Shown here piece by piece: positions 4,846-60,423 of a stretch of DNA of 64,000 nt. A program made the position numbers and the translations under genes. Origin of the DNA: Cymodocea nodosa (lineage: Eukaryota; Streptophyta; Magnoliopsida; Alismatales; Cymodoceaceae). The first letter of the stretch is position 1; each line of letters starts with the position of its first letter. The DNA lies in assembly GCA_036874045.1 (NCBI GenBank), contig CM072337.1, forward strand, positions 2,976,001 to 3,040,000. The letters run 5' to 3'. The notes under the pieces are model-generated. The model worked only from the letters and a program-made list of their open reading frames with translations, was not told where the DNA came from and ran no database searches.

Positions 4846-6780
4846 TCTTAACTTTACAACTTGGTTAATTTATCTTTGTGCTTATATCAATAATTTTTTT
4901 TTAGAAGTAAACAAACAACATTTCACACAAATTAGATATTAATTCTAATTTGTATTTTAACTGCAAGTACATAGTGTATATTATATTTGTGTGCAAGTAC
5001 AGGTCGATCCCATAGAGAATTGAGTATGAATTGTGTACTGTTCCATTTTTTATATTATACTTAATGTGTTCAATAATCACTTCGTTGAGTTACAGTTAAC
5101 ACAACAGACTAATCTCGTGGACTTAAGTTAACTCCACGAGCCTATCTTTCCAATTTAATACTACTATTTACAGAGGAATTTGGCCAACCATTAGGCGATT
5201 CCACAAATTGTAAATAACATCAATTAAGCTCTTTAATGTTAGTGAATATTAGATTTATCATTAGGCAATACTAACATTCAGATATTTCAAACAGTAGTCA
5301 TTAAAATCTTTAAGTATTTGGAACGAATCAATTTCAGTAAATTGTAAAACTATTATCTATTTTCTGAATCAAATACACATAAACATTCACAATATTGACA
5401 ATGATAACTTTAATCACGATACAAAACAAACAATACAACACTTAAATACGAAATATAAACACAGATAAGTTGTTGTTTTTGGTATTTTAGTTTTGAGATG
5501 TTCATGAAAATGGCCAAAAGGTGAAATGTAAAAAATTAATCTCTATCGACAGTAAATACTTTCATCACTACATGCTACGCGATTACACCACTGAAAACTT
5601 AATCACTTACAATTCTACCTCCTCTCCCTATAGAATCGCGAGTCTAGAATTGCAAGATGATCTCGTCTTTAGCATACTGGCATCAACTCGAAACTAAGGC
5701 TAGAAGCTTTACGATCTCCTAAGATATGAGTCAGTGTTTGGTGAAAATGGCTTCCCTTCCTACGACGCGATCACTCCTCACAATGGTTGTCAAGCACCAT
5801 GTTTGGCTTGGAATCGACCCGACATCAGGAAAGTATCCTTACAGACCTTTGATGGTTGGTGATTATGGTGGTGGTGTGGAGCTTCAGGGAACTTCCGACG
5901 CTGCCTGTAGATAGCGCGGTTCTCCACCTCTGCATACACACACTTCTTTGTCTTTTCTCCTTTTCTTTTATATTTCTTTAGTAGTAACTGCTTCTACTTA
6001 GATGATCGGTTGGATTTCCTTCATTCATATCAACGATGGTTATTTCTTCTCCCTTCCACGAGTGAATTCCTACATGATATGTGCAATCGTGGTTTTTCTT
6101 CGAATGTCTTGTTTCTATAACTGCTATAGTGGCATATTAGAAAATAAATGGTCCGTGGAGTTACAGATAACTCAACAGACTTACTTCATTGATTTAACTA
6201 TAAAACACATGCAATAAAGAAATAAGCTGCTAACATAACACGTTACCTTAGTGTGCATTCATGTAACCCTACGCGTATAGTTGTGCTAACTTAACGAGTT
6301 AAACATGTGCATCTCTCGTGATATACTAAAGCATTTAAATTCAACACGTACATAATTCTAACTTAACAAGTTCAAATATTTTGGATACTTACAAACCTAA
6401 CTATTTGATGCCTAAATGCATTTTGGGTAGTTAACAGATAACTTATCGAAAATTCACTTAAGTCATGCATTATGGTTTTGACACGTGTACTTTAGGAAAT
6501 AATAAAATATTCTTTAAAACATAACTACCTGGTACATTCAATATAACTCTCTAAAATAACAGAAAATTTGGATACTTAAGAATTTCACACCCTGCAATTT
6601 AACGATAGTTCAGAAATGTACTAAATTAACATTAATTCCCTGAAATTGTACAGATTCTTTCATTAAAGCATATAACAGTGCAATTATAATATAATAGCTT
6701 AATTCTCATATGATAAGCTAAATATTATGCAATTAACCATTATTTAACCGTTAATATTATGCACTTTTTCATTCTAACAC
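4846..6780 (-). repeat. LTR1 (3' LTR of Athila element 1)
   Basis: Matches LTR2 (18271-20549) along its length, including the blocks 'ggtcgatcccatag', 'gcttcccttcc' and 'gtgaattcctac'. It ends …ttctaaca at 6780, directly before the purine tract. Its outer end reads TCTTAAC where LTR2 has TGTTAAC. It holds one copy of the repeat unit that is present three times in LTR2. The ORFs at 5726 and 6002 are LTR sequence, not genes. Confidence 0.8.
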
Positions 6781-6800
6781 TTCCCTCATACTTAAATTTT
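6781..6800 (-). other. Polypurine tract, Athila element 1
   Basis: The minus strand reads …gtatgagggaag immediately before the LTR start TGTTAGAATG. This is a decayed version of the cleaner tract at 20550. Confidence 0.65.
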
Positions 6801-8602
6801 GCTAGTCCCTTAGCAAACTAAGATCTAATTAATTGGTCTTTCTAAAGTGCTAGAATTAATTCTTCCTTTTGTTCTTCTTTTCAGCATAAGAATTTAGATT
6901 ATTATATAGATATTCTATATGTTTTAGTAATCTATTTTAACATTGTTTTCTCCTCTTCAACTTGTAAATATACTTAGAATTTATGTAAATTACATACAAA
7001 ATATATCAGCATCACATAGGTGTTAATTATATTATCATTTGGTCTTCTTTTCAGCATCTGTCATCCTGAATTTTCCAATAAGATTTCCAGAATAAATTTC
7101 AACAACATACAAATCAAAACACAATCCAATTCAATATGATTAAGACAAGTAAAATAAAGATTTGTATCTCAAATAAACAACTTCAAAAATTTTCTAGATT
7201 CATATTTTAGCAATTTTAGATAATAGAAAATATACTCGATTCAAAAGATATCTGTAATTCACAAAACACTTGTATCTTTTCAGAATAGTATATGCATATT
7301 TGTACTTTAAAAGTTACTTTGACAAGCTTAAATCATACAAGAGCTTTCTAGTGTACCCATGTATCAAGCTTTCAGTCAACAATCCCAGATCTGATTAGGA
7401 TCTTAGGTTGCTAGATTTAAAGAGTCATTTTTTCAGGTCAACAATCCTTACATACCTATCTACTTAAGTACAAAAGGTTCGTGATCAAACAAGTCAATAA
7501 ACTCTCAAAGTTTTTTTTTTTTTTTTTTTTTTCTTTTCAACATAGTATATATACGTATTTCATTAATACAGATGTAATAAAACACCAATCTCATATAGTC
7601 CTGCTTCTATTATTTACTGAAAATATGAATCCATCTCAATAAGCTCATACTTTTTTCTATAGTTTAATAAGATTTACACATAAATCATTCTACAAGTTTA
7701 ATCAATCAAATTAAATGTATCCTTGATTGTATGCATTTCATTTAATCCAAAAATCAACATTTTATCTCTTTCAAGATTTCAGATAATTTACTGAGTTTTA
7801 GTTAAGCATTCTGATTTCATTTTAAAATCGTGAAATTGTTAAATTCATAAAATTCAGCAAAAACATAAGATACTATATATAGATTTGTATGAATAATAAA
7901 ATTTGTAGCATCTTATATAGGATTATAAATATAACATTCAAGCAGTTACAGTTAAAAAATTTTACAGTCTCAATTATCGGATAGTTACAGCAAATTCATA
8001 AAAATTTTTAATTTCCATAAAACTTTGCAGTACCATTCTAATTCCTTTAATTAACAAACTTACATAGCTGTTACTTTAATTACCTCCCCCCCCATACCTA
8101 TATTTTGCATCGTCCTCAATGTAAAAGATTTTACAATAAATTCAGTAATTGTAGTAGGCATGACTATTGTTTCGTTGACTTAGCTTCTAACTTAACGAAC
8201 TTAATTCATTGAGTTAATGAATAACTCCACGAATTGAGTTTAAATCTAAATTCAAGATAAGTAATCAATTACGTACCTTTTTTTTTGTATCTCCTTCAGT
8301 ATATTCCGATTTTTGATTCTAAAAAACTTTTCATTCACGAATAAAAGCAAAATATATAACAAAATAACATTTAACAAAACAGATATTGTTAAATCAGTGT
8401 CTTGTGTGGAACTTAGGCTCCTTTGCCTTTGGTGGCTCACAAGCAAGCTAGTTGGTTTCCTAGAACAGATACCAACAAATTGGATTGATATTTTGTTTTT
8501 TTTTTCTTATAAAATAAAACTAAAACTAAAAAAAAATTTCATTTTTTTTATTATTAAAATAAATGCAAAATACACACAACATTAAAAACATAAAATTATA
8601 AT
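6801..8602 (-). other. Untranslated 3' block of Athila 1 (shared with Sireviruses)
   Basis: No gene here. The part at about 6950-7880 is recognisably the same sequence as the Sirevirus block at 48280-49215; both contain 'caatcccagatct', 'ttaggttgc' and 'aataaactctcaaag' in the same order. A long T run lies at 7509-7532. A second purine tract (minus strand, a run of eight G at about 8087-8094) lies at 8080-8101. The block sits between the F-box ORF and the polypurine tract, so it would be 3' UTR of any transcript. Confidence 0.7.
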
Positions 8603-9742
8603 TTAAGAACATGATTGAAAAGTAGTAACAAATGGAATAAACGTGTCAGTCCAAGTAAATTTTTTAGGCATAATTCTTTTTACTATTAATTTTGTTTTAA
8701 TGCAGTTCGTTTTCCTTCTTAATTTGTAAACTTGCAGTATGTTATCAATACTAAATATAAGTGTATTACCATTAATGAAATGAAATGTAGAAATGGATCC
8801 TTTTATGTTCCAAGATAATGTAGCTGTTAATATTTCTACATCTATTTCAATATATTTCTCTTCCCACTTTCATTCATTTATGTCTTTCATAATCCATATT
8901 TGAAATTTCATCAATTCATCCCACCATCTTATTAGACATAAAGTAGGATCATCATATTCATTATACCACATTCTTAATTGAATTTTATTATATTCTGTAG
9001 ATGGTGGTTTAGCTATATCACTCGGTATAGGTAAAATTTCTATAAAGTCATTATCATAACTATTTATGCTTACTATGTATAAATCAGATCCAAATGCAAT
9101 TGATATATCTGTGACTAGATATATATATCCATCAAGTATGACATGTATGCTGTTAATTAATGATTTCTGTCTTAGATATATCATAATATTTTCGGTCCAA
9201 GATCTATTCAGAAAATTATACACACTTCAGCATAAATCTTCATCCCAATTTCAAGTTGGTCTGCAATAATACAATTTTTTAGGAATAGTAAAATTTTTAT
9301 AAGAAAATATTAAAGTTGACCTACAATTTTCAGTTAGTACTTCATATCTATTAGGCCTTCCTATATTCCACTCTTCTCTTGTGATAGGATTTCTAATCAA
9401 AATGTCAGGTAACAGAATTGCATACCTTGGTTTGGTTCTATATATAATTAATCCTTCATCCATCCCCATAATATGATCTATTCCTTCTAATGTATTGGGT
9501 GGAATTCCAGTAGTTTCTTCCATATTCAGATATTCATAGCTAATTAAACTACGATTAAATGACTTCCATAAAAATCTATCTCTAATCTTAGTCATTTTTG
9601 CAGCTTGTAGTCCATAAAAATATTTTTCTTTGACACAGTCTTTAATATCCTTTAATACACAACACAATCTGCACAGATCTTTAGCTAACAAGTTACTCAA
9701 TACTTCCCTTAGTGCGTCCAACGGTAATTTCATAAATTCCAT
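8603..9742 (-). pseudogene. F-box-like protein with FBA-type C-terminus, pseudogene (copy 1)
   Basis: One reading frame of 379 codons broken by three in-frame stops (near 9252, 9234 and 8871). Two of them (near 9234 and 8871) fall at codons that are sense in the intact copy at 21528-22502; at 8871 TGG has become TGA. The N-terminus MEFMKLPLDALREVLSNLLA fits the start of an F-box (LP-x-D-x-L-x-E-x-L). The later 'DELMKFQIWIMKD' fits F-box-associated domains, which bind substrates of SCF ubiquitin ligases. The C-terminus is about 70 residues longer than copy 2. A strong splice acceptor (…ttatgttatacag) precedes the exon at 9754. Coding strand, order and spacing match the element's own genes. Function is inferred from family resemblance only. 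Confidence 0.7.
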
Positions 9743-9753
9743 CTGTTGTGATT

Positions 9754-11342
9754 CTGTATAACATAAACAAAAATTTAGTAGAGACAAAATTAGCATAACT
9801 ACTTCACACCCTCGTGGAGTTAGGTCATAACTCAACGGATTAAGTTCGTTGAGTTAAGTAATAACTCTACGATACTATTAACTATAAGTAAACTTACATT
9901 TTTATTTTATTTTTATACCTACTATATTATACATAGTTACTTAAGTTATACTACTTCATTCAGCTACCCTCCTAGAGGAGGTATCAATTTCATTAATAGT
10001 TCTATTGGCAGGGCTAGGTATTGCTTGTATTAGCAATCCTCTAGTAGGTCTAACTTCCATTGATTCCTTCTATCTAAGTGGTATATTTCTATTTTGATTT
10101 TGAATTGCAGCATTTCCAAATACAAGATCTAAATGATTGTTTAATTGTTGGATTATCTTTTCTAATTTCTCTATTCTAGATCATTGTTCAATTAATGCTT
10201 CATAACTTATATTCTTGTCATTTATATTTTCTCCTCCTTGGAAATTGTTGTTTCTCCAAGATAAATTCGAATGATTTCTCCAATTAGGGTTATAAGAATT
10301 TCCAAAGTTATCTTTCTAGTTTCTAGCATAAATAATATCTAGATCATTAATGTTTGCATTCTTTTCTACTAGTTTTTGATTTAATGATAACTCTTCTATT
10401 TTCTTTGTTAATTTAGTTAATTTAACTTTAAGTATAGTGCTTGAATCTATTTCATGCATTCCCCTTGGCAATATTCTTTTATCTATAATAGCTTCAGCCG
10501 AGTTTTCCTACTATGTAGTTCTTTTTGTAAAGTTTTCTAAATATGCCCATGCTTCTTCACTACGTAGTTGTAAAAATTCATTCTGACAAGTAAATTCTAA
10601 TAAAGATTTTGTTGAAACATCTATGCCTTCATAAATTATACCTATTAATTGTGCTTTACTCATTGCATGATGTGGACATTGAGTTAGTAAATCTTTAAAT
10701 CTTTCAAAATATTTCCAAAATGATTCTCCCTATTTTTTGCTACACATTAATATTTCTTTTTTCTTTTTAATCGTTTGATGTGCTAGATAATATTTTTCTA
10801 GGAAAATAGAGTAAAATTCAGTCTTTGTAAAATTGAACCAGGCAACAGAGTATATAACCATCTCTTAGCTGTGTCTTTTAAAGCAAAAGGGATATATCTA
10901 AGTTTAATAGCATCTATACTCATGTTCGACATTTTCATCATTTGACAAACTTCGTTAAATTCTCTAAGGAAATAATAGGCATCCTCTCTTTCTAATCCAT
11001 GAAAATGTGGGAATTGACTAATATAATTAGAGTTCAGTTCAAATCTATCTCCCTCAAAGTTTGGCAATCGAATACATGAAGGTTCATCAATTAATTCAGG
11101 ATACAGAATTTTTCCTAATGATTTTTCTACTGGAGTAGTCATATCTTCGTTCTCTTTTAAAGAAAGGTTAGCTATACTCCTAAGGATTTCGTTAAAGTCC
11201 AATTTAGAAAATATTTCAGTATGTCTCTATGTTGAATAATCCTAGGTAGGTGTTCTTACTAATTGTTTAGTGCTAAGAGAATGAATCCATGTGCTCATAA
11301 ACTCTTAACATATAGTAAAATAGTAGAAGATTAATTACATAC
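9754..11342 (-). other. Intron of the leader/F-box transcript, containing gag
   Basis: The donor on the minus strand is cagattG|GTATGT at 11343/11342. The acceptor is tttatgttatacAG|AATCA at 9754/9753. Element 2 has the same leader and the same F-box exon joined exactly at these points (…cagactG|AATCAACAAATGG at about 22484), so the 1589 bp behave as a removable intron. It contains a same-strand Athila gag pseudogene. Confidence 0.75.
9960..11202 (-). pseudogene. gag: Athila gag (copy 1, inside the intron)
   Basis: Retrotrans_gag-type capsid protein: the N-terminal stretch 'FEGDRFELNSNYISQFPHFH' is followed by 'LREFNEVCQMMKMSNMSIDA' and 'YIPFALKDTAKRWLYTL'. After a frameshift near 10800 come a 'KYFERFKDLLTQCPHHAMSK'-like block and a C-terminal part ending near 9960. 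Several stops interrupt it. The frame has no ATG: its first codons (…HTEIFSKLDFNEIL) follow an in-frame TAG inside a conserved acatAG|A that could be a splice acceptor. Odd position: it lies downstream of env-like, not between primer site and pol. Confidence 0.8.
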
Positions 11343-11450
11343 CAATCTGAAGCTTTATATTCAGTAAATAGTTGTTAACGGATGAAGTTGAATCAGCTGC
11401 TTCTCCTTCTAGTTCCCCAACGAATTTTCTTTTCTTTCAAAAGTGCTAGT
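11343..11450 (-). other. Leader exon of the F-box transcript (copy 1)
   Basis: About 100 bases from the expected start below the TATA box to the donor at 11343. The same leader occurs in element 2 at 22484-22595. There it contains ATGGAAAGC in frame with the F-box ORF; here those bases read ATATAAAGC, so the leader start codon is absent. The 5' end is inferred. Confidence 0.5.
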
Positions 11451-11473
11451 AACTAGTAAATAACATTTTGTTC

Positions 11474-11483
11474 TATATTTATA
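11474..11483 (-). promoter_or_regulatory. TATA box of the internal promoter (copy 1)
   Basis: The minus strand reads gcatTATAAATATAgaac, about 130 bases upstream of the splice donor. A second TATA-like stretch (ctataaaaatagg) lies upstream near 11555. Element 2 keeps a TATA here (22616-22625). This would be a promoter inside the element, separate from the LTR promoter. Confidence 0.5.
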
Positions 11484-11639
11484 ATGCACGTCCATAAAGC
11501 AAATAAATCTCATTGCAAGAACGTGTCTTGTAATGTGTAGTGTGGTTCCTATTTTTATAGGTACGTGTGCCACTTCTAATTTTAAATTTTAGTAATCGCT
11601 AAACCCACACAGTTTCGTTCATGGCTAAAAAGAATAATT

Positions 11640-11840
11640 GTTTAGCTTAATCCACGAACTAACCTCGTTAAGTTATAGTTAACTCAACGGACTAGCTTCG
11701 GTTACTGTTGCTAACTCCACGAACTAACTTCATTGAGTTACAGATAACTCAACGGAGTGACCTTATATTATATTATTGACCTCGTGGAGTTAAGGTTAAC
11801 TCAACGAATTTACTTCGTTGAGTTAACACTTAGCAAATTT
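11640..11840. repeat. Cluster of CGTTGAGTTA / TAACTCAACG palindromes
   Basis: At least five copies of cGTTGAGTTa or its complement within 200 bases, several as inverted pairs with a short spacer (gttgagtta-cagat-aactcaacg). This forms the spacer between the env-like ORF and the internal promoter. 11841-12284 is AT-rich spacer in which I see no feature. Confidence 0.7.
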
Positions 11841-12284
11841 CTAAAACTTACTCCTCGTATTAAGTTATATATTTTTTTCTCTCCTACATTTTTCCAACTT
11901 AAATAAAATTAAATACATGTCATTAATGTAGCATTTTGATTAAAACTCATTTAAATCTGAACATTATATAAATATTTAACTTATAGCTCATTTCATATTA
12001 TGTAGAATTTATATTTTACTTTGCAACATGCAGATATTTTCAGCATTAACTAGTTATTTTACATTTAATCCTGTCATTCATAAAATTTGTATATATTTTA
12101 AACAAATTTTTTTTTTCAACTTGTTCAATCATTTATATAATACTCAAGATAGTTCATCCATTTCATCATTCTCAAACACGAATGAAAAATATATCTGAAA
12201 AACATATATTCATTAATATGAATAATTTACATTACAATTAGATATTTTTCATATAAATATATACAAGTAGACGAACAATACACT

Positions 12285-14485
12285 TTAATCTCTTCCACTA
12301 AGTTCATCTACTTCCTTCTGGAGTCTTTCTACAGCTCTTGTAATTCCTCTAGAAGGTTCAGCAATCTCTACAGTAGCATAATTTCTGTACTCTTTCACTG
12401 AAATGGTTCCTGATCTTATCCTTTTGGATGCCCATTTAGTGAAATCGATACAGTCCACCATCAGCAGTGGAATCAGATCTCCATAAAATAATTTCTTCTT
12501 CACTGTTCTCATCTTGGAGATAAAAACTGTAGACCAATTTATCTAAATTCTATTCACAACTGCATATGTAGCCCATTTGACAAATTGACTCAGTTCTATA
12601 TCGTGGCCTTATCGTTGGTAGACATTCTTAATTAGAATGCTAGCTATCATGTGTGCTTTACCATTTAATTGCTTTAATCTATTTAATAATGGCATACCAA
12701 GATTGATAGCTAAACAATCCTTTATGTTCTGTTTGTCCACTCGACTGTAGTTGTGTCTTCCAGAATTTCTAGTTCTTCAGTTTTCAATCTTAGAATGTTG
12801 TAGAGAAGCTCTTGTGTTATCTATACATCAGCTTCCTCCACGTTGGAAATTAATCCTCCTCCTCTTAAGTTTGCATAAAAGCAAGACATTAAATTTTCAT
12901 ATACTGCATGCCCTCTTTCTTTAGAAATAAACTGCAGTAGACCTTGGAACTCAAATAAATCCTTAATTTCTTGCATCCCGTCCCAATTTACTGGTCTATT
13001 GTATATGATATCATAACCCCTAATCTCTTGGTATTTATTATGAGCTTCCTAACTCCAAAAGTGTACTTCATTTAGAATTGTTGTTTTAGTTGGGTTAGGA
13101 ATGTGAATTTGTTGCTCTTGAGGGGTTTGTTCTTGGACTTCCTCTTCCATATGCTGAACTTGAACTTGCTAAAAATGCTCTAAGGATTCCTGAATATTTG
13201 CTTATGCTTCTGTCTGTGGTGGTGAGCTGGCAGAACTCTCCACTTTGTCTTGAATTCTTTTCAAAAATTGTTGGAGAGTTTCTTGCTCTTCAGTGGAATC
13301 TGTAGAGTCATTTCTTTCCATATGTACTTGTTCAGCTTCTTGTTCAGTTTCTATTCTTTCTTCTTCCTCCTGACTACCAATCTGCATTGTCACTGTTCTT
13401 TCTGATTTTGTGGCAGATTGAGATGGAGTTATGGGCAAATCAACTTCTACCCTAATTTCTATTTCTTCTTCTTGTATAGGCTATAGATTAGTTTCAGCCT
13501 GTTTTTCTTCTTCTCTTTGCTCTTGCTACTACTCCTGCTCCTCCTTAGAATCGGATAGCAGGTTTACAAAAATCGGCTCTACAGGCCCTATTGATATTGG
13601 TACTTTAGATTTAATCTCCTCTTGATATTCAAGCACTATCTCTTTTCCTTTCCTTCTTTTGATTAATTGTGCCTGGTCTTCCTCTTCTTCTTCTGAGATT
13701 AAATTTACAAAAATAGGCTTTACAGGCCTTTAAGCCACAGGTACTAGCTCTTGCTATTTAACTTTTTCAATAATTGCTGGTCTCAAAGGACCAGCTTCAA
13801 CTCCTCTTGTAGTAGTTCTAGCAGTAGCTTCTTGATGTTGTTCCACTTTGATTTTATATTGGGCTTTCAACTTTTCTGTAGCTCTCTTTTTGTAAAGTGT
13901 ATCAAACACTAGGTGTGCTTTAGCTATTGCTAAATCTTCTGATTCTCCTTGGTTTTTCCCAACTCGAACTAGTTCTTCAAATTCTCTTAATTCTTCTTCA
14001 TTTGAAGGCCCCATAACTACCACCCTTTCTAATGGTTTAGGAGGTGGAATTGAAGGTTCTGGTTGTTGTTCCTCAGGAACAGGTCTTTCAGCAGCCGACT
14101 CCTCTTGTTCTTCCTCTACTTGTTCTTCATTTTCTTTCCTTTGTTGCTCCTAGATTTCCCACAAAGCCCGTCTACCTATGCATCTTTTGAACCAAAGGCG
14201 GGACTTACGTTGTATTAGTTCTAGGGCAACTTCGTTGTTTGGTCTGATTTTTCTCTCTTTGCTTACAGCAATTTCCGTAGCAACTTTTATTCTTATTTCC
14301 ATAATCTAAGGTATTTATATATCTAAATCTACTAAAACTCTTCTCTAGTTGAAAAGATCAGATTCTACCTTTTGTAGCTCTTTTTCCCTCGTCGTATTCC
14401 TGATTTTCTGCCTCGTATGCCATTCCTCCGAATCTTTAAGAAATTCTGATGTGTCAACTACTCCCTCCTAGAATCCCGATGTCAT
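12285..14485 (-). pseudogene. Env-like ORF of Athila element 1
   Basis: Long accessory ORF downstream of integrase. It starts MTSGF at 14485 and is broken by many stops. N-terminal third: charged, Glu-rich and probably coiled ('EEELREFEELVRVGKNQGES'). Middle: 'IKDLFEFQGLLQFISKERGH' then 'CFYANLRGGG'. C-terminal part: 'GHDIELSQFVKWATY', 'KKLFYGDLIPLL' and a final 'RLQKEVDELSGRD'. The pattern fits the plant 'putative transposon protein' family found as env-like ORFs in Athila and Sirevirus. It lines up block by block with the Sirevirus ORF at 45488-47762. No membrane segment is visible, so 'env' is positional naming only. Confidence 0.7.
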
Positions 14486-15166
14486 CTTTATCATCGTGGA
14501 GTTACACAATGGAACAGAATCGCTCTGATCTTTATTGTTCTAAGTTCTAAATGATTCTACAGATAATGCCCCCAAACCCTAGGTTTAGTATAAATAAGCC
14601 CTAAGTTTAGGTAGGTAATCGGGTCATTTTTTACACAAAACTCTCGCTCTTTCATCCGTAGAATTACGGTTAACTCCACAGACTTAGTCTGTGGACTTAA
14701 CTACAGTACTTTGTTGAGTTATAGTTAACTCAATGGGGTAAGTTCATTAACTAATCCTAGACTTAACGGTGTAAGTTCATTGAGTTAAGCATAACTCAAT
14801 GGACTTCCCGTAAAGTTATATATAATAAAAATACTTAAAATAATAATTTTTTCTTCGATCAAGACCGAAGAGTTTCCGGTCTAACCGATCTTACTTTTTC
14901 CATACTTTAAATTTTTTTTGGTCAAATCGTTATATTCCTCGATTGAACCGAAATTAAATTTTTTTTTTTTTTTTCTCCTATCAGTTGAACTAATGCTATG
15001 CTTCATTAAAATTGACATTTTTACTAAATATAATATATAGATTTTTTAATGTTTTTTATGTTTCGGTTAGACCGATGGATCTTGTCAGTTGCACCGCAAT
15101 GATTTTTTTTTTTTAAAATGTGCTTTGGTAAAACCAATAATTCCTTTCGGTTTACCGTAACTATGT
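14486..15166. other. Spacer between integrase and env-like with TCGGT…ACCGA palindromes
   Basis: No ORF. 14640-14810 carries more GTTGAGTTA/TAACTCAAC copies. 14870-15145 carries short inverted repeats of the form TCGGT-NNN-ACCGA (clear at 14876-14890 and 15063-15075) among poly-T runs. The same spacer follows integrase in element 2 (32896-33182). Confidence 0.6.
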
Positions 15167-16502
15167 TTAAATAAGTTTTTTTTTTATTAAAAAAAAAGAT
15201 TTCTTACTAAGTAAAGCTCTTACTTCTATAATTTCAAAAGAATTTTTTAGTATTTTCAAAATAGGTCTAAGTCTTTGTCCATTTACTTTAAATATATTCT
15301 GATTTTTAAGATTTTCAATCTCAACAACTCCATAGGGATAAATATTTCGAACTATGTAAGGTCCTGCCCATCTAGATCTTAATTTTCCTAGATGGTTATG
15401 GAGTTTAGTCATGTAAAGATATACTTCTTGTCCTATTTCAAAGGTTTTTGAAATAATTTTCCTATAATGCTAGAACTTCATTTTCGCTTACAGTTTTTGA
15501 ATAAGCTTCATTCCTAAATTCTTCTAATTCAATCAATTGTATTTTTCTATTTTCAGCAATTTGATTTGAATTAGTGTTTAGAGTTTTTAATGCCCAATAA
15601 GCTTTATATTCAATTTTAGCTGGTAAATGACAACTTTTTCCATATACTAGCCTAAAAGGTGACATACCTAAGCTTGCCTTATAAGAAATTCTATAAGCCC
15701 AAAGTGCATCTATCAATCTATTAATCCAATTTGTTCTAGTAGGATTTACTACTTTTTCTAAGATTAACTTAATTTGTTTGTTGGCAATTTCTACTTGTCC
15801 ACTTGTTTGCGGATGATATGATATTGCAATTTTGTGGTTTACTCCATATTTCTTCATTAAGGCTTCAAAACTTCTATTATATAAATGAGTTTCTCTATCA
15901 CTGATAATAGCTTTAGGTATTCCAAATCTAGCAATTATATTGGTTCTTATAAAATGTATTACCACTTTGTTGTCATTAGTTTTTGTAGGAATAACTTTTA
16001 TCCATTTAGATACATAATCCACCCCCAACAATATATAATTAAATTGATTAGACATAGGAAATGGACCTATAAAATCTATTCCCCACACATCAAAGATTTC
16101 AACCTTAATAATAAGATTAAGAGGCATCATATTTCTCTTTGATATTCTTCCTATTTGTTGACATCTTAAATAACTTAAGCAATATTTATGAGCATCTTTA
16201 GATAGTATTGGCCAATAAAATCCACATTGCAGAATTTTAGTAGCAGTTTTCCCTAAACCAAAATGCCCTCCATATGCTTGGTCATGGCAGAAAGACAATA
16301 CGCTTTGATATACAGTTTCTGGAACACACCTCCTTAAAACCAGATCATGACATTTCTTAAATAAGTATGGGTCTTCCCAATAGTAATATTTTACTCTTAA
16401 GAAGAACAATTTCTTATCTTGTCTATTCCAATCCTTAGGTGTTAAACTAGTAACTAAGTAATTAATTATGTCTGCATACCAAGACATTGTTTTGATGGTC
16501 AT
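15167..16502 (-). pseudogene. pol: Athila integrase (element 1)
   Basis: The first 346 codons are open (16502-15462); the C-terminal tail continues at 15412-15167 after a break. The zinc-binding HHCC region shows 'HDQAYGGH' then 'CLSYLRC'. The catalytic core is visible: first Asp in 'GIDFIGPFP', second Asp in 'AIISDRETHL', Glu in 'SGQVEIANK'. '[18 protein letters not shown]' and the C-terminal 'LRSRWAGPYIVRNIYP' are typical of the Athila/Calypso lineage. It would insert the element cDNA into chromosomal DNA. The core residues survive, but the ORF is cut off from RT by stops. Confidence 0.9.
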
Positions 16503-17075
16503 TAATTGTTCATTAGGAAAATTATCCTTAATTTCAATATTTGATTTTTCTATTTGTAATCTTGATAAATGATCTACTACTACATTCTCACAACCTTTTT
16601 ATCTTTAATTTCTAGATCAAATTCTTGTAATAATAATATCCACCGGATCAATCTAGGTTTAGTCTCTTTTTTTACTATTAGGTGTTTTAAAGCCGAATGA
16701 TCCGTGTAAACTATCACTTTAGCTCCAATCAGATATGATCTAAACTTTTCTAAGGCAAACACAACAACTAACAGTTTTTTTTCAGTAGTTGTATAATTAA
16801 CTTGAGCATCATTTAAGGTTTTGCTTGCATAATAAATCACTCCAGGAGATTTTTCTATCTTATGTCCTAGCACTGCTCTTATAGTAAAATCAGATGCATC
16901 ACACATTAATTCAAATGGATAGCTCCAATTAGGTATTTGAATTATAGGAGTTGAAATTAAGCTAGTTTTAAGCTTGAAAAATGTTTTTTTGCAATTTTTA
17001 TCAAAGTTGAATCGGACATCTTTTAATAGATTAGTTAAAGGTCTAGCTATTTTGCTAAAGTCTTTAATAAATCTT
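16503..17075 (-). pseudogene. pol: Athila RNase H (element 1)
   Basis: The open part at 16906-16580 starts '[16 protein letters not shown]' (catalytic Asp), continues '[20 protein letters not shown]' (Glu) and '[13 protein letters not shown]' (Asp), so the usual D-E-D residues are present. It lies between RT and integrase as expected for Ty3/gypsy. It degrades the RNA strand during reverse transcription. Frames on both sides are broken. Confidence 0.85.
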
Positions 17076-17926
17076 CTTTAAAAACCAACATGTCCTAGAA
17101 ATGATTTAATATCTTTTATTGATTTAGGTTCTAGTAGATTAGAAATTATTTCTATTTTAGCTTTATCTACTTCCAACCCTTTCTTTGAAACAACATGCCT
17201 TAAGACTATTCCTTGTTTAACCATGAAGTGACATTTTTTCCAATTTAAAACCAAATTTTTTTCCACATAGTGTTTTAATATTTGGTCTAAATTGTTTAAA
17301 TACACTTCATATGAAGTTCCATAAATAGTAAAATCATCCATAAATATTTCTAAAAAATCTTCAGTCATTCTAGTAAATATGCCCTACATACACCTTTGAA
17401 AGGTGGTTGGTACATTGCATAATTCGAATGGCATTCTCTTAAAAGCATAAGTTCCATTAGGACAGGTGAAAGTTGTTTTCTCTTGATCCTCTAATGTTAC
17501 TAGAACTTGGTTATATCCTGAATACACGTCTAGGAAACAAAAATATTCTTGCCCTGCTAATCTTTTTAGCATTTGATTTATAAAAGGTAAGGGAAAATGA
17601 TCTTTCCTAGTCACAACATTCAGCTTTCTATAGTCTATACACACTCTCCAGCTTGATTGAATTCTAGTAGGTATCAAGTCTTGACTTTCATTCCTAATAA
17701 CTATTAATCTTGATTTCTTAGGAACTACATGGATTGGGCTAACTCATGAGCTATCAGAAATCAGATAAATTATGTCATTATCTAACCATTTCACTATTTC
17801 CTTCTTGACTACTTCTTTAAGGTTTGGATTTAATCTCCTCTCAAGAATTCTAACAGGTTTAGCATTCTCTTCTAAATATATGTGGTGACAACATAAAGTT
17901 GCACTTAACCCTTTTATATCAGTCAT
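17076..17926 (-). pseudogene. pol: Athila reverse transcriptase (element 1)
   Basis: Three open pieces. 17926-17744 is the fingers region ending 'KEIVKWLDNDIIYLISDSS'. 17677-17384 has 'WRVCIDYRKLNVVTRKDHFP' and the 'MPFELCNVPTTFQRCM' block. 17368-17078 has the catalytic 'IFMDDFTIYG' (Athila elements use FMDD). Small frameshifts or stops separate the pieces. It makes cDNA from element RNA. Relatives: the better-kept copy at 34684-35953. Confidence 0.88.
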
Positions 17927-18212
17927 AGTCCATCATATTGCTTCTTTATAACTTTTTACTACATCTTCTAATTTAGCAATTTGATCATCTTTTAAATCTG
18001 AAGTAATAATGATTGGACATGTTTATTTTTCTTTCAGAAATATATAGGTTAATTAAGGAGGTAAATGTTTTAATTCTAAATGTTGCCCATTAGAAGCTAG
18101 AGCTCCTAATTGAACATCATTATTTTCTAAATTAATTTCTTCCTAATCTCCTTCTATATTTATGCTTTCAATTTCCTTTAAAGTTTCAAAATTGAGTTGT
18201 GTTTGGATCTCT
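17927..18212 (-). pseudogene. Remnant of the PR-RT linker; gag and protease missing
   Basis: Minus-strand text (…ESINIEGD, EEINLENNDVQLGALAS) matches the stretch just after the protease in element 2 (36124-36180). It ends at the primer site. Everything between primer site and linker, that is gag and protease, has been deleted here. Confidence 0.7.
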
Positions 18213-18258
18213 AGCACGACACTAGAAAACTTGTTTGGATCTCTAGCAATGCGCTATA
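18213..18258 (-). other. Tandemly duplicated, decayed Athila primer-binding site
   Basis: Two direct copies about 30 bases apart: minus strand TAGCGCATTGCTAGAGATCC beside the LTR and GTGTCGTGCTAGAGATCC further in. Both derive from the tRNA-Asp type site TGGCGCCGTTGCCGGGGA, and both are followed on the LTR side by a CAAGTTTT-like word. They show LTR2 is the 5' LTR of element 1. Confidence 0.65.
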
Positions 18259-18270
18259 AAAACTTGGATT

Positions 18271-20549
18271 TGTTAACTTCTGTTTTTACTTAGTTAATTT
18301 ATCTTCATGCCTATATCACTGAATTCCCTTTTAGAAGTAAACAAACAACTTTTCACAAAAATTAGATATTAATTCCAATTTGTATTTTAGATGCAAGTGC
18401 ACAATATCTATTGTATTAGTGTGCAAGTATAGGTCGATCCCATAGGGAATTGCTTAAGAATTGGGAACTCTTCCGTTTTTAACAATGAAATTTATATTCA
18501 ATAAGCTCTTCGTTGAGTTACAGTTAACTCAACGGACAAAGTTCATTGAATTATGGCTAACTCAATGGACTTAAGTTAACTCCACGAGCCTACCTTTCCT
18601 ATTTAATACTGCTATTTACAAAGGAATTCGGCCAACCATTGGGCAGTTCCATAGATTGTAAATAACATCAATTAAGCTCTTTAATATTAGTAAACACTAG
18701 ATTTATCATTAGGCAATACTAACATTTAGATAATTCAAACAATAACCATTAAAATCTTTAAGTCTTTTGAACGAACCAATTTCAGTAAACTGTAAAACTA
18801 AAACAAACATAAAACAATCACAACACTGACAAAGATAACATTAATCACGATACAAAACAAACAATACAACACTCAAATACAAAATATAAACACAGATAAG
18901 TTGTTTTTGGTATTTTTGTTTTGATATGAGCATGGAAATGGGCGAAAGGTGAAATGTAAAGTAATCTTAGTTGATAGTAAATACTTCTATCACTACATGC
19001 GACGCGATTACACCACTCAAAATTAAATCACTTACAATTTTGTCTCCTCTCCCTATAGAATCGCGAGTCCAGAATTGCAAGATGATCTCCTCTTCAGCAT
19101 ACAGGCATCAACCAGAAGCCAAGGCTAGAAGCTTTACGATCTCCTGAGATATTAGTCGGTGCTTGGTGAAAATGGCTTTCCTTCCCGCGACGCGATCACT
19201 CCTCACAGTGGTTGTTAGGAACTATGTTTGACTCGGAATTGACCCGACATCAGGAAAGTATCCTCACAGACCTTCGATGGTTGGTGATTATGGTGGTGGT
19301 GGAGATGGTTGGTGTGATACTTCAGAGAATTACCGACGTTGCCTGTAGAAAGCTTGATGATCCTCCTCTACACACACTGGCCACACCCATCGATCACACA
19401 CCCTTTACTTCTTTTTCTTCTTTTCTTTTATATTTCTTTAGTTGTAACTGCTTTTGCTTGAATGGTTGGTTGGATTTCCTTCATTCATATCAACGGCGAT
19501 GATTTCTTCTCCCTTTGACGAGTGAATTCCTACGTGATACGTGCGATCGTGGTTTTGTTTCCAACTGTCCTGTTTCTGCAACCGCTACAGTGACATATTA
19601 GAAAATAAATGGTCCTTGGAGTTACAGATAACTCAACGAACTTGCTTCGCTGATTTAACTATAAAACACGTGCATAAAGAAATAAGCCGCTAACATAACG
19701 CGTTACCTTAGTGTGTATTCATGTAACTCAACGCATACAGTTATGCTAACTTAACGAGTTAAACATGTGCATCTCACGTGATATACTAAAGCATTTAAAT
19801 TCAACACGTGCATAAATTTAACTATCCGATGCTTAGGTGTATTTCAGATACTTACAAACTTAACTATTCGATGCTTAGATGCATTTCGGATAGTTACAGA
19901 TAACTCATCGATATATAATTTAAGTCAATCTTCTAGATCACGACACGTGTCATCAGTAGTTTTATAATAAAGAAATATTTCGAAGAGTTGCAAGTCTAAC
20001 TATCTAATGCCCAGATGCATTTCGGATAGTTAAAGATAACTCACTAAAAATCCACTTAATTCATTCTTCCAGAACATGACACGTGTCCACAGCTATTTTA
20101 TAATAAAAGGAGATTTCAAAGAGTTACACATATAACTATCCGATGCCCAGCTGCAATTTTGGATACTTAGAGATAACTCACCGAAAGTCCACTTAAGTCA
20201 TGCATTATGGTTTTGACACGTGTACTTCAGGAAATAATAAAATATTCTTTTAAAACATAACTGTTCGGTAATTTAAACGTAACTATCTGGTACATGTTTG
20301 GTATGTTAAACATAACTATCCAAAATAACAGAAAATTTGGATACTTAAGAATTTCATAGCCTGCAATTTACCAGTAGTTCAGAAATGTACTAAGTTAACA
20401 TTAATTCCCTGGAATTATGCAGATTCTTTCATTAAAGCATATAACAGTGCAATTATAATATAATGGCTTAATTCTCATATGATAAGGTAAATATTATGCA
20501 ATTAACCATCATTTAGCCGTTAATATTATGCACTTTTTCATTCTAAACA
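18271..20549 (-). repeat. LTR2, shared by Athila elements 1 and 2
   Basis: On the plus strand it runs from TGTTAACTTC to …ttctaaACA, 2279 bp. A primer site lies on its left and a purine tract on its right, so it is the 5' LTR of the left unit and the 3' LTR of the right unit. It carries the conserved 'ggtcgatcccataggg' block near 18430. The ORF at 19212 is LTR sequence. Longer than LTR1 partly because of the repeat array at 19819-20260. Confidence 0.85.
19819..20260. repeat. About 135-bp tandem repeat in LTR2 (3 units plus a partial)
   Basis: Units start taactatccgatgc near 19861, 19998 and 20133, after a 42-base partial unit at 19819. Each contains in order TAACTATCCGA, TTCGGATAGTTA, CTTAAGTCAT and CACGTGT. 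LTR1 (about 6394-6520) and LTR3 (about 40017-40130) have only one unit. Confidence 0.75.
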
Positions 20550-21527: not shown

Positions 21528-22502
21528 TCAAAACTTCAGATAATTTACTAATAATGTAGTAGTTTCTATTTCTACATCTATTTCAATATACTCCTCTTCC
21601 CACTTCCATTCATTTATGTTTTTCATGATCCATATTTGAAATTTCATCAACTCATCCCACCATTTTATAAGACATAAAGTGGGATCATCATATTCATTAT
21701 ACCACATCCCTATTTGAATTTTATCAAATTCTATAGATGGTGATTTAGCTATTTCTCTCAGTATAGGCAAAAATTTTATATATTCATCATAACTATCTAT
21801 GCTTACTATGTATAAATTAGATCTAAATGCAACTGATATATCTGTGACTAGATATATATATCCATCAAGTATGACATGCATGTTGTTAATTAATGATTTA
21901 TGTCCTAGATATATCATAGTGTTTTTAGTCCAAGATCTATTTAGAAAATTATACACACTCAAGCATAAATCTTCATCCCAATTTCTTGTAGGTCTCCAAT
22001 AATATAATTTTTCAAGAATGGTCAAATTTTTATCAGAAAATATTAAACCCGACCCACAATTTTCAATTGGTACTTCATATCTATTAGGTCTTCCTATATT
22101 CCATTCTTCTATTGTAATAGGATTTTTGATCAAAATATCAGGTAATAGAATTGCATACCTTGGTTTGGTCCTATATATAATTAATCCTTCATCCATCCCC
22201 ATAATATGATATATTCCTTCTAATGTATTGGGTGGAATTCTAGTAGTTTCTTCCATATTTAGATATTCATGGCTAATTGAACTACGATTAAATGACTTCC
22301 ATATGAATCCATCTCTAATCTTAGTCATTTTTGCAGCTTGTAGTTCTTGAAAATATTTTTCTCCAACATAGTTTTTAATTTCCTTTGATACACAATACAG
22401 CTTGCACAGATCTTTAGGTGACAAGTTACTCAGTACTTCCCTTAGTGCGTCCAGCGATAATTGTATTAATTCCATTTGTTGATTCAGTCTGAAGCTTTCC
22501 AT
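21528..22502 (-). CDS. F-box-like protein, open ORF (copy 2)
   Basis: 324 codons, open throughout. Start MESFRLNQQ lies in the leader exon; the F-box-like segment follows (residues about 10-50: 'MELIQLSLDALREVLSNLSP', 'DLCKLYCVSKEIKNYVGEKY'). Residues 125-150 have 'ILLPDILIKNPITIEEWNIG', like the 'NP-x-T-x-E-W' motif of F-box-associated domains. Residues 280-310 have 'CLIKWWDELMKFQIWIMKNI', like the FBA 'F-x-I-W-V-M' block. Such proteins select substrates for SCF ubiquitin ligases. Leader and F-box exon are joined without the intron seen in copy 1. The C-terminus is cut about 60 residues short by a deletion. A host gene captured by the element is the simplest reading; expression is unknown. 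Confidence 0.7.
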   Translation of the reverse strand: MESFRLNQQMELIQLSLDALREVLSNLSPKDLCKLYCVSKEIKNYVGEKYFQELQAAKMTKIRDGFIWKSFNRSSISHEYLNMEETTRIPPNTLEGIYHIMGMDEGLIIYRTKPRYAILLPDILIKNPITIEEWNIGRPNRYEVPIENCGSGLIFSDKNLTILEKLYYWRPTRNWDEDLCLSVYNFLNRSWTKNTMIYLGHKSLINNMHVILDGYIYLVTDISVAFRSNLYIVSIDSYDEYIKFLPILREIAKSPSIEFDKIQIGMWYNEYDDPTLCLIKWWDELMKFQIWIMKNINEWKWEEEYIEIDVEIETTTLLVNYLKF

Positions 22503-22625
22503 TCAATAAATATTTGTTGACGGATGAAGTTAAATTAGTTTCTTCTCCTTCTAGTTCCCCAACGCATTCTCCTTTCTTTCAAAAGTGCTGGTAACTCGTA
22601 AATAACCTTCTGTTCTATATATATA
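22484..22625 (-). promoter_or_regulatory. Internal promoter and leader, copy 2
   Basis: TATA stretch (minus attaTATATATAgaac at 22616-22625) followed by a leader that matches copy 1 (words: aaaagtgctggtaac, cttctccttctagttcc). It runs straight into the F-box ORF at the point where copy 1 has its donor site. Confidence 0.5.
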
Positions 22626-22870
22626 ATGCACATCCATAAAGTAAATAAATCTCGTTGCAAGAATGTGTCTTGCAATGTACAGCGTGGTTCCTGTTTTTAT
22701 GGGTACATGTACCACTACTAATTTCAAATTTTAGTAATCGCTAAACCGACGAAGTTTCGTTCGTGGTTACAAGAATAACCGTTTTGCTTAATCCACGAAC
22801 TAACCTCGTTGAGTTACAGATAACTCAATGGAACAACGTCGGTTACTGTTGTTAACTCCATGGACTAACT

Positions 22871-23199
22871 TCGATTTAGTTGAACATTTATCTTTTAAGT
22901 CTTGTAAAAACTCGAACACTTATCCTTTAACTCTTCGAGTCTTTGCACCTACAAAACACGTGACTGAATAAAGAAATTTATCTGTTCGTTAGTCCTTTTA
23001 TAAAACTCGAATAGTTATCTATCCATGCGTATCAAAACTCGAACAGTTAACTATTCGATTTTTCATTACGAACGCACTTGGAAAACACGTGACAACTTAA
23101 AACATTAAAAACACACATGCAGATAACTTAACTATACGAGTTTTTAACATAAAGTATTCGACAAAAACAAGACATTAACTATCCGAAAGTTTAACTATC
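22871..23199 (-). repeat. Internal piece of a Sirevirus LTR embedded in Athila 2
   Basis: Matches LTR A at about 1594-1940 (gatttagt, ctcgaacacttatcctttaac, aacacgtgacaactt). Neither LTR end is present and no duplication is visible. In element 1 the same place (11725-11756) has a short palindrome pair between the shared flanks 'ctaacttc' and 'agagtgacctta'. Confidence 0.7.
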
Positions 23200-25372: not shown

Positions 25373-26943
25373 TGTTGAGTATTTTTGTTTTGATGATGTG
25401 TGCTGAATGAAAATAATTATATTTCCTCAATTACTATTGCTTGTGAAAAGAAATTAAAATCATCAATTAATACAGAAAAAGCTTACTGATATAAATACTT
25501 GTTTGTATTGGATCTAAAGTTAATATCTAGTCGTTTCGTTGCATTAATTTCTCATTTAGCTAAACGTTAAGTTAACGTGTGTTTCTATTGAAAAGCATGA
25601 TATGTTTTAATGTTATATCTTCTGTATCATGAACAGTGCACGTTTAGACAACTCGTTAAGTTAGAGTTTTGTTTGTATAGAGGTCACGTGAGAACCCGTT
25701 AAGTTAAATGCTTAAAGGTTAAAATAGGTCACGTGATAACTCGTTAAGTTAGTGAGTAAAAGAAGAGACGAACTCGTTAAGTTAGTGTTATACACGTGGT
25801 GAAATTATAAGTTACGAATGTTGTATTGTATCATGTGAGGTGCACATGTTTAACTCGTTAAGTTAACATAACTAAACGCATTGAGTTGCTATATTGAACA
25901 CTAAGGCAACGCGTTAGGTTAGCGTTATAAACTTAAGTTGTTATTTTTGCACGCGGTAAAATTCTTATTATAAAAACATTTATTTATTATTGGTTCGTTG
26001 AGTTATCATAAATGGTTCGTTGAGATAGCATAACACCACAGACTCAGTTCGTTGAGTTAGCTACAGTACTTGTCACATGAAATGGCACATGAGGAACTCA
26101 TTAAGTTAGAAACGTTAAGTTATATATATACTTGTGTTACTTGTTTAGTTAACATTAAAGTAACGACTTCTTATTACACTGATGAAAAACTTTTGGACGA
26201 GAAAGTTTATTTTGCAGGAAATTTTTCAGAGATCCAAGACTGATGATTAAAGAAAATTCGAAATATAAACGTGGGTTGGAACGTGTGTGTTTCGATGAAG
26301 GAAAAAGAAAAGACGTGGAGAAGTGGAAAACTGGTAGTGGTTAAACGTGAAGGATATGCATGAAATGAAGATACAGTATAAAAGGCAAAGAATTCTCATT
26401 GATCAATTTATCCTTGCACACAAAACGAAAAATCTTTTCAAGGATCAAACCATCCCTGCACACCAAAAGAAAAGTCTTTTTCAAGGATCAAAAACACCTT
26501 CTCGGGGAAAATCTCTCAACTGGAAGAAAGTTCAGTGAAGCATAAAAAGGTAAGATTTTCGTCACTAAAGATTTGAAGTATCAGAAGAAAGCAAATTCGG
26601 TGAAGCATGAAAAGACAAGATATTCGTCATTGAAGAATTGGTGAAGAAGAAAAAGAAGAAGAAAAAAGATCTCAAACAGGGAGAAAAGTTTTAAATTCCG
26701 CAAATTAGTTTTCTCTGTTTGTAGTTATGAAATTGTTTAGATGATACATGATATCGAAATATAATTGCATCTACAATTTTTGAGGAGAATTGAATTGTAT
26801 ATTGTAATTGAAACCTTAAATAAAAATGATTTTATGAAAACAATGTCTCGACTTGTTTTTGAGATTTAAAGTTTCAATTATATTTCAGAAAATATTAAAG
26901 ATACTCAATTCACCGCCCTCTTGTGTAGCCATACGATCCTACA
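25373..26943 (+). repeat. 5' LTR of Sirevirus B
   Basis: TGTTGAGTATT … GATCCTACA, 1571 bp. The U3 part is packed with 'aactCGTTAAGTTA' and 'CACGTG' words (25640-26120). A TATA box TATAAAAGG lies at 26377-26385, about 560 bases before the LTR end. Repeated 'ttttcaaggatcaaa' elements lie at 26430-26500. The ORF at 26347 is a chance frame. Confidence 0.88.
26377..26385 (+). promoter_or_regulatory. TATA box in LTR of Sirevirus B
   Basis: TATAAAAGG in the expected U3/R position; the same box occurs on the minus strand in both LTRs of Sirevirus C (43971-43979 and 61059-61067). It is missing from B's own 3' LTR. Confidence 0.65.
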
Positions 26944-26958
26944 AGTGGTATCAGAGCT
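26944..26958 (+). other. Primer-binding site, Sirevirus B
   Basis: agTGGTATCAGAGC immediately after the LTR, a perfect initiator-tRNA-Met type copia site. Confidence 0.92.
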
Positions 26959-27143
26959 TTGTTAATAATTTTTGATATAAAATCGATACCAACGTATTTA
27001 ATATCATTGCTTATTCTACCTTCCTTGTTTTTAAACAGAAATTAATATCTAAGCATACGTTTAACTTTCTTGATTTAAGGCTCAAATTGTTTTAACGTTT
27101 TTAGACTGTTTAAAATCTAATAGGTTGAAAAATCTAAGGTAAA

Positions 27144-29402: not shown

Positions 29403-29405
29403 TTT

Positions 29406-30389
29406 GTGTTGCAAGAGGAAACAACATCAAAATGGATCTTGGACAGTGGAGCGTCAAGTCACATGACTGGACAAAAAAGTCTATTACAAAATTTTACAAA
29501 TACCATGAAAGGAAGTGTAACATTTGGAAACAAAAGCAAAGATAAAATTATAGGTATGGGCAATGTTCAAATAACTCCTACTTGTGTTATTTCGAATGTA
29601 CTATATGTAGATGAAATGCTTAAGAAATTTAATTTTAATGATACAAGGATTCGAGGAACTCTTATGAGTACTACTTTAAAGTTAGATATTGATGACATAG
29701 AAAAATCTATAGATCAAAGAAAATACAGAAGTATGATTGGTTCTTTACTTTATTTGACTACTAGTAGACCTGATATTATGTTTGATGTGTGTGTTTGTCC
29801 TAGATTTCAATCTAATCCTAAGGAATCACACTTAATTGCAGTTAAAAGAATATTTAGATATATACAAGGAACTAAAAATTTCAAACTGTATTATTCTAAG
29901 GATAGTTCAATAGATCTTATAGGAAATACTAATGCTGATTATGTAGGATCTAAATCTGATAGACAGAGTACCAGTGGCACATGTCAATTATTGGGAAATA
30001 ATTTGGTGTCATGGTTTAGTAAAAAGCAAAACTGTATAGCACTTTCTACTATAGAAGCTGAATATGTTGCTGCTGCACTGTGTTGCACTTAGATTCTGTG
30101 GATAAGGCAAACTTTAGAAGATTTTGGATTATCTTATGATACAACTGAGATTTATTGTGACAGTAGTTCTGCAATAAATCTTTCCAAAAATCCTATATTA
30201 CATTCAAGAGCAAAGCATATAGAGGTTAGACATCATTTTCTAAGAGATAACGTAATTAAAGGAAAAATTAAATTAGAATTTGTGTCTAGTAAAAATCAAT
30301 TAGCTGATATATTTACAAAACCTCTAGACGAAAATACATTATGCAACATTAGATTAAATTTAGGTATTTGTAGGCTATGTGATGTGTAA
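29406..30389 (+). pseudogene. pol: In-frame protease-RNase H fusion (element B)
   Basis: Begins with the aspartic protease motif 'WILDSGASSHMTG'. About 70 codons in, at atatgtaga (about 29605-29613), it jumps to 'MLKKFNFNDTRIRG', the RT thumb/RNase H part, keeping frame. RNase H residues are visible ('YVGSKSDRQSTSGTCQLLG', 'IALSTIEAEYVAAALCC', 'EIYCDSSSAINLSKNP'). One stop (TAG, 30090) precedes the C-terminal 'LADIFTKPLDENT' and the end at 30389. Integrase and RT palm, present in Sirevirus C, are deleted. The product would lack polymerase and integrase activity. Confidence 0.85.
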
Positions 30390-31957: not shown

Positions 31958-31981
31958 TTGTTGTTGTTACAACCTACGACG

Positions 31982-32130
31982 ATGGTCTCCAAGTTCTACA
32001 AAGGTCGTGGCAGAGGAAAAGGCAAAAGCAGAAGAGATGCAAAAGGAAAAGAAATAGAGAATGATGAAGTTCCACGTACTTGGTTCAAGAAAATATTTCG
32101 AGTGGACAAAATGTTAGAAGAACTTTATAG
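31982..32130 (+). pseudogene. Env-like ORF stub (Sirevirus B)
   Basis: MVSKFYKGRGRGKGKSRRDA, then 'NDEVPRTWFKKIF': the N-terminus of the Sirevirus env-like protein, same start as the copy at 47762. After about 50 codons the sequence switches to mid-LTR at 32131-32135, so the rest of the ORF, the polypurine tract and the start of the 3' LTR are deleted. Confidence 0.8.
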
Positions 32131-36753: not shown

Positions 36754-36822
36754 AAATAGGGAACTACTTTGCTCAGCTAAAAAAACATTTGTAAGAACTT
36801 TTCACTCTCTTTTCTTAGTACA

Positions 36823-42790: not shown

Positions 42791-42897
42791 TCTATGTTAA
42801 TAATCTTGTGTAGGTGTTTTGACTAATCATTTAGTATTAGGAGAACAAATCCATGTTATCATAAATTCTTAACATATAGTAAATTTCAGAAAGTTAA

Positions 42898-45004: not shown

Positions 45005-45022
45005 TCTCCCCCTTTTTAATGA
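45005..45022 (-). other. Polypurine tract, Sirevirus C
   Basis: The minus strand reads aaaaAGGGGGAGAT directly before the LTR start TGTTGAGT. A second AGGGGGA lies at the inner end of the shared block near 48283-48289. Confidence 0.85.
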
Positions 45023-60237: not shown

Positions 60238-60423
60238 CTTACCTTAGATTTTTCAACCTATTTGATTTTAAACAGTATAAAAACTTTAAAACAACTTGAG
60301 TCATAAATCAAGAAAGTTAAACGTATGCTTAGATATTAATGTCTGTTTAAAAACAAGGAAGGCAGAATAAGCAATGATATTAAATAAGTTAGTATCGATT
60401 TTATATCAAAGATTATTAACAAA

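Follow-up and report, generated by a model that had tools for sequence, protein, structure and literature searches.

Exact presence and absence of a gag-containing, intron-like interval ahead of an F-box reading frame in an Athila-like retroelement of Cymodocea nodosa

Splicing of plant LTR retroelements has been published for Bagy-2, Ogre, CRR, BARE1 and EVADE (PMC3735527, PMC12786077). For Bagy-2 the reported product is a spliced env RNA, as cited in PMC3735527 and PMC1142308. According to the BARE paper, packaged RNA is unspliced, attempts to amplify DNA copies of the spliced RNA from barley failed, and elements must keep spliced RNA from replicating (PMC3735527). The Diaspora paper has suggested that env could be lost in a single step through anomalous splicing and subsequent reverse transcription (PMC1142308). 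The family described here, found in a stretch of 64,000 nucleotides from Cymodocea nodosa (the window) and followed through the 374.6-Mb genome, resembles that one-step route acting on gag, such that a whole gene leaves the retroelement at once.

Exact absence of the interval and its splice signals

Two copies of the element lie on the minus strand of the window. In copy 1 a leader block (11343..11739, ending CTTCAGATTG; defined by its letters and self-BLAST) is separated from an F-box exon (8815..9753, beginning AATCACAACAGATGG) by the interval 9754..11342, which is 1,589 bp long and reads GTATGT...TACTAAATTTTTGTTTATGTTATACAG. At the donor side (11343/11342) the letters of the window are CTTCAGATTG followed by GTATGTAATTAATC, and at the low border (9754/9753) they are TGTTATACAG followed by AATCACAACAGATGG. 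Copy 2 carries the homologous leader at 22485..22881 (letters, ORF list and self-BLAST), and this runs straight into the exon at 22485/22484 (CTTCAGACTG followed by AATCAACAAATGG), the interval being absent exactly from border to border. Unguided self-BLAST of the window broke at 11343 against 22485 and at 9748 against 22481. A shift of the junction by a single base (G) is the only one that the letters allow, and the exon starts of the two copies differ by an indel (AATCACAACAGATGG versus AATCAACAAATGG). The gap at the junction was placed from the BLAST pieces and the letters; a MAFFT global alignment put it elsewhere. The initial annotation had claimed a precise intron presence and absence between copies 1 and 2, and by letters and self-BLAST this is true to the base.

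The borders carry GT-AG signals, with donor GTATGT, acceptor CAG and, in copy 1, a branch-point-like TACTAA; in many other copies the branch-point-like site is TATTAA, TGTTAA or TGCTAA. Of 30 intron-plus loci that could be read at the acceptor, copy 1 among them, 28 keep the AG and two have AA, a count taken from 32 rows minus L045 (misread) and L061 (intron-minus). By its letters, 9754-11342 thus qualifies as a predicted GT-AG spliceosomal intron in donor, acceptor, branch-point-like site and exact removal. Two of the 30 fetched junction loci, L009 and L025, have the leader donor joined to AATCAAAAAAAT, a second AG/AATCA acceptor, so that the F-box is skipped. Its counterpart in copy 1 lies behind TTTTTTAG, with the AG at 8319-8320, and precedes a donor-like GTACGT; the exon-like stretch between them (8277..8318, minus strand) begins AATCAAAAATC and ends AAAG. 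These two junctions support splicing but are not proof of it, because an intron-minus copy that lost the sequence from one AATCAA repeat to another would look identical. About 140 bases before the donor, a motif scan allowing one mismatch also found a TATA-like box (11476..11483, minus strand), and the motif is present at -136 to -143 in 59 of 60 listed rows (72 examined). Such a box would allow a short transcript to start from an internal promoter.

Both intron-plus and intron-minus copies were found when the genome was searched and further copies were sorted. With up to three mismatches allowed, the leader is followed by GTATGT at 2,836 sites and by AATCA, the spliced junction, at 246 sites, and backwards-read control patterns gave 0. 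About 8% of the counted leader sites are spliced. The figure of 246 is a lower bound, as it misses junctions whose leader has diverged further, as in L061, and it also takes in second-acceptor junctions (L009, L025). Leaders with at most one mismatch number 2,136 genome-wide (reversed control 1). On contig C1 the 91 exact leaders divide into 69 with GTATGT next, 12 with AATC (the second acceptor, in L009, being one) and 10 with other sequence; a junction is present at one of the last 10 too, leaving 9 of the 91 in neither class.

To the exactness of the junction a second pattern applies, in which 0 to 30 bases were allowed between AAAGCTTCAGA and ACAAATGGAATT. It matched 112 sites (reversed control 0) and is blind to junctions that lost either anchor. 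The spacing was exactly 8 in all 100 listed sites of the 112, and ragged breaks at the splice borders were not found among these 100. The initial annotation had read copy 2 as a cDNA-like spliced form, a view supported by its exact borders and by the same exactness in the other copies listed. A precise genomic deletion by DNA repair, with no RNA step, is by comparison highly improbable. Rearrangements are indeed common in the family: in a set of 28 loci picked by the F-box exon alone (28 of 40 scored, copy 1 among them), at least eight (L005, L006, L044, L052, L053, L056, L057 and L059) are broken inside the intron region. However, those breaks are scattered and none falls at the splice borders, whereas the single intron-minus locus of the set, L061, has an exact junction. 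Borders that overlap by one base only, and 100 exact junctions out of 100 listed, also speak against deletion. The fetched loci were the first listed and no random draw.

Copy 2 carries a second deletion (copy 1 8815/7792 versus copy 2 21551/21549) without GT-AG borders, indicating that deletions in these copies have no general tendency to coincide with splice signals. A microhomology deletion was considered as the cause and fits this other break, but not the loss of 9754-11342.

Element layout and the gag frame inside the intron

Copy 1 is arranged as 5' LTR, pol, ORF O, leader, intron with gag, F-box, 3' region and 3' LTR. Copy 2 is a 3' half, and its last LTR also precedes the pol of copy 1. 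This LTR (18232..20549, minus strand; TGTTTAGAATG...AAACA), the 5' LTR of copy 1 and the 3' LTR of copy 2, was identified by homology to the direct repeats of a relative, the L034 region, with its ends read by eye. The 3' LTR of copy 1 (4859..6779, minus strand) adjoins a purine tract, GTATGAGGGAAG, at 6780-6791, and its low end is truncated or unaligned. Because the two LTRs of copy 1 are only 82.9-92.1% alike in pieces, this copy is either old or a composite. Across 4859-25227 the window holds two element bodies head to tail with the common LTR 18232-20549, as LTR recombination would leave.

The pol region (15219..18199, minus strand) has a reverse transcriptase piece at 17384-17743 (Pfam RVT_1, 8.6e-14) and an integrase piece at 15462-16598 (Integrase_H2C2, 2.4e-10; rve, 1e-11). 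The integrase is therefore behind the reverse transcriptase, the order of the Ty3/gypsy type. Between pol and the leader lies ORF O (12290..14149, minus strand, limits approximate), which was defined by ORF reading, has no Pfam family and is broken in copy 1. In the 1.5 kb ahead of the leader, ORF O was detected in 24 of 30 loci lacking the intron and in 22 of 30 that have it. The initial annotation had called the block a leader, but it is not the 5' leader of the element: the LTRs lie elsewhere, and both pol and ORF O precede it. With ORF O upstream in 46 of the 60 loci, a role of this block as 5' leader or as LTR is out. Since the leader is downstream of pol and ORF O, the predicted intron belongs to the 3' half of the genomic RNA, not to its 5' end.

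The L034 region (L039 + L040) has direct repeats of about 1.86 kb that are 94.4% alike. Between them are pol, ORF O, leader, F-box and the 3' region, with no gag. These LTRs begin TGTTTAGAATG and end AACA, and the second stands directly behind a purine-rich GGTATGGGGGAAG. Seven bases after the second LTR, in this one relative only, comes TGGCACCGTTGCCAGGGA, a tRNA-Asp-type primer site. Behind it are zinc-knuckle-like and protease-like stretches, read by eye, in an ORF to which Pfam gave no family. A pattern search of the window gave no good tRNA-Asp primer-site match; behind the LTR 18232-20549 a degenerate candidate, TAGTGTCGTGCTAGAGATCC, was read by eye. We call the element Athila-like Ty3/gypsy, a name that draws on the primer site, the layout and the style of the proteins. 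Diaspora and Calypso are described as having a primer site complementary to tRNA-Asp (PMC1142308). The L034 region cannot be read as one clean insertion, as other sequence, 1.3 kb long and lacking a primer site, follows its first LTR, and for this reason a full-length RNA is rated only as the likely template of the spliced copies.

The capsid-domain ORF of gag lies within the intron (9957..11226 in copy 1, minus strand), where it is broken and its limits are approximate, being drawn from longer frames in relatives. In the relative L069 the intron ORF is 385 aa and matches Pfam Retrotrans_gag at 3.9e-16, which bears out the claim of the initial annotation that the removed interval holds gag; the 142-aa open piece of copy 1 gag itself gave no Pfam match. 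Among 42 copies, a few retain long gag frames in the intron (444, 385 and 334 codons). Gag follows the leader in 30 of 30 intron-plus loci and in none of 30 intron-minus loci. The usual Athila order, with gag before pol, was not found: the 142-residue piece matches only two intron copies in the window, and has no match in the L034 and L036 regions. From these few upstream regions we conclude that in this family the predicted capsid domain is encoded within the intron, behind pol and ORF O.

At 41265-42913 on the minus strand the window holds one more gag interval, the third, which has diverged. It is 82% alike and has an intact acceptor (GAATACAG followed by AATCTCAACAAATGG), with its leader replaced by other sequence and its F-box shortened. 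A dispersed motif like AACTCAACGAACTTAATCCGTTGAGTTA recurs in the leader, intron end, LTR and spacers (for example at 11700-11850, 9800-9850, 14700-14820 and 8180-8240). Another repeat group, partly inverted and about 85-96% alike, links 26054-32895 with 43347-50137 and 57764-61390 and is apparently unrelated to the gag-intron element.

Intron-minus copies in the leader and exon trees

Trees from either side of the junction show intron-minus copies interspersed with intron-plus ones. The leader tree, with 43 intron-plus and 31 intron-minus rows, needs 17 changes of state (bootstrap 16-19), of which 5 are forced by strong branches, and still needs 17 when the long or odd rows L033, L046, L061, L065 and L066 are left out. 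Its labels are nevertheless more clustered than shuffled labels, which need 24 changes on average. In the exon tree, with 29 intron-plus and 27 intron-minus rows, 7 changes are needed and 5 are forced. A single intron-minus clade was rejected on the leader side (p = 2.3e-38) and on the exon side (p = 4.6e-62).

The exon tree also bears on the idea that the intron-minus state is ancestral and that the gag interval was inserted later. A first, small exon tree had suggested such an intron gain, with 6 intron-plus rows forming a near-clade, and the idea was dropped once more intron-plus rows had been added, as the 29 rows are spread over the larger tree. Donors outnumber junctions by 2,836 to 246, the diverged window copy at 41.3-42.9 kb retains both gag and the acceptor AG/AATCTCAACAAATGG, and no target duplication was seen by eye beside 9754-11342. 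We consider a later insertion of gag to have next to no probability.

A harder question is how many times the intron was lost. One old splicing-derived gag-less copy might have given rise to all the rest by descent, with template switching between co-packaged RNAs spreading its junction to other backgrounds. Recombination among Athila elements has been published (PMC2410132). The placements of L015, L017 and L030 conflict between leader and exon trees, indicating that recombination acts and that the change counts overstate the number of splicing events. Some intron-minus copies also sit in clades of their own, such as L012, L015, L017 and L030. By contrast, both the leader and the exon sequence place L014 and L061 inside a strongly supported copy-1-type clade, so that a crossover would have had to be double and tight. 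Neither the grouping of these two as sisters (p = 0.072) nor a copy-1-type intron-plus clade that excludes them (p = 0.062) was rejected. The exon types AATCACAACAG and AATCGACAAATG are each found both with and without the intron, and the AATCG-type exon follows the acceptor in L093, L095 and L096, which have the intron, and is found at the junction in intron-minus copies. A single clade of nine intron-minus copies (the AATCG group and its kin) was not rejected on the leader side (p = 0.076), and nearly the same nine were rejected as one clade on the exon side (p = 1.1e-06), the two sets differing in L033 and L036. A fair reading is that there were at least two intron losses, in the copy-1 and AATCG lineages, and probably more, and that some intron-minus copies additionally spread as templates. 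We regard a single origin as unlikely.

Two further features of the intron-minus copies were observed. A 316-bp spacer block (window 22882-23197), alike to 36820-37138 and 1591-1927, is complete or almost complete in L015 (copy 2), L017 and L030, and among rows L009-L032 a 40-bp remnant occurs in L012; these four intron-minus carriers form one leader clade. In L019 (1124-1927) the leader of an intron-minus copy is in tandem duplicate, with an F-box exon stub of about 31 bases between.

Taken together, these results make it very probable that spliced RNA of the Athila-like element was repeatedly reverse transcribed to give gag-less, intron-minus F-box copies. On this model the element's genomic RNA would carry 9754-11342 as a spliceosomal intron in its 3' half, and unspliced RNA would retain the gag capsid ORF behind pol and ORF O. 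Nuclear splicing would remove gag and join the leader, mostly with an ATG and six codons, to the F-box ORF. The spliced RNA would then be packaged, reverse transcribed and integrated, repeatedly, leaving hundreds of gag-less F-box copies. As these lack a capsid of their own, they would have been moved by proteins of other copies, with Gag supplied in trans. Splicing, packaging and reverse transcription acting together would account for the precision of the junction as well as its presence in separate lineages.

The F-box frame after splicing, and comparison with known systems

The second exon had been described in the initial annotation as an F-box ORF, and Pfam agrees in both window copies and in L039, with 23.3 bits in copy 1 (5.7e-05), 27.5 bits in copy 2 (2.7e-06) and 31.4 bits in L039 against a cut-off of 20.5. 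The frame is broken in copy 1. In copy 2 the spliced frame is open for 324 codons (21528..22502, minus strand), beginning with MESFRL from the leader, whose ATG is at 22500-22502, and continuing into the F-box ORF. The same fusion is seen in most intron-minus loci read. Of 30 such loci, 28 have a leader ATG placed 18 bases ahead of the junction, and in 24 of the 28 its frame reads MESFRL-N[QR]Q-[MI] into the F-box ORF; of the other four, two stop at codon 8 and two are the second-acceptor copies. In intron-plus loci the leader ATG is present in 25 of 30, and in 24 of the 25 its frame stops after 9 codons. Leaders of the copy-1 type have GAATAT instead of GAATGG and lack the leader ATG, and would thus have to use the exon's own ATG.

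On the model the F-box frame would be translated. Only 8 of the 28 intron-minus loci have an open frame of at least 200 codons, with a maximum of 388. Pairwise dN/dS between groups is 0.41 in the F-box frame and 0.49 and 0.76 in the wrong frames, and a codon-position test for selection on the F-box frame was not significant. No protein homologue of the ORF was found at E 0.001 among 502 candidates, and a single-sequence structure model had a mean pLDDT of 35.8, too low to be of use.

A possible role can be offered only tentatively. The intron could act as a switch, with unspliced RNA giving capsid and spliced RNA giving an F-box protein directed against a host factor, for instance one of silencing. 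The P0 of poleroviruses is an F-box protein that acts on host silencing. Because the spliced RNA would itself be packaged, such a switch would continually shed gag-less F-box satellites, spread by the parental capsid.

Retroviral accessory genes likewise give extra proteins from spliced RNA, and we know of no capsid gene within an intron, and no F-box, in their splicing or in that of Cer1. In Cer1 of C. elegans, too, an extra protein comes from spliced RNA (PMC12786077). In the literature searched, outside which most subscription journals lie, we found no precedent for a capsid domain behind pol within an intron, nor for an F-box ORF expressed by such splicing in an LTR element. LTR elements with acquired domains (2-ODD, G-patch, PMD, AIR1 and CHROMO) are similar in keeping a host-like domain in very many copies (PMC9289625); in the main text of that survey the word F-box has 0 occurrences.

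One close counterpart is the lineage of Athila, Calypso, Diaspora and Bagy-2, which shares with the present family the tRNA-Asp-type primer site (seen here in a relative), long LTRs, and extra ORFs and long non-coding stretches from pol to the 3' LTR. It differs in that here the capsid gag lies behind pol in an intron, the second exon is an F-box, and integrated spliced copies occur by the hundreds. Ogre resembles the present family as a plant Ty3/gypsy element with an intron in its genomic RNA, there between gag and pol, but the position and purpose of the intron are different (PMC12786077, PMC9289625). In the barley copia element BARE1 and in EVADE, which make a spliced subgenomic gag RNA, splicing also chooses between Gag and other products; as these reports describe it, splicing favours Gag there, whereas here it removes gag (PMC3735527, PMC12786077). 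By contrast with BARE as described (PMC3735527), DNA copies of the apparently spliced form are common in the present family. With hundreds of integrated spliced copies beside thousands that keep the intron, splicing, packaging and mobilisation in trans would become countable from DNA.
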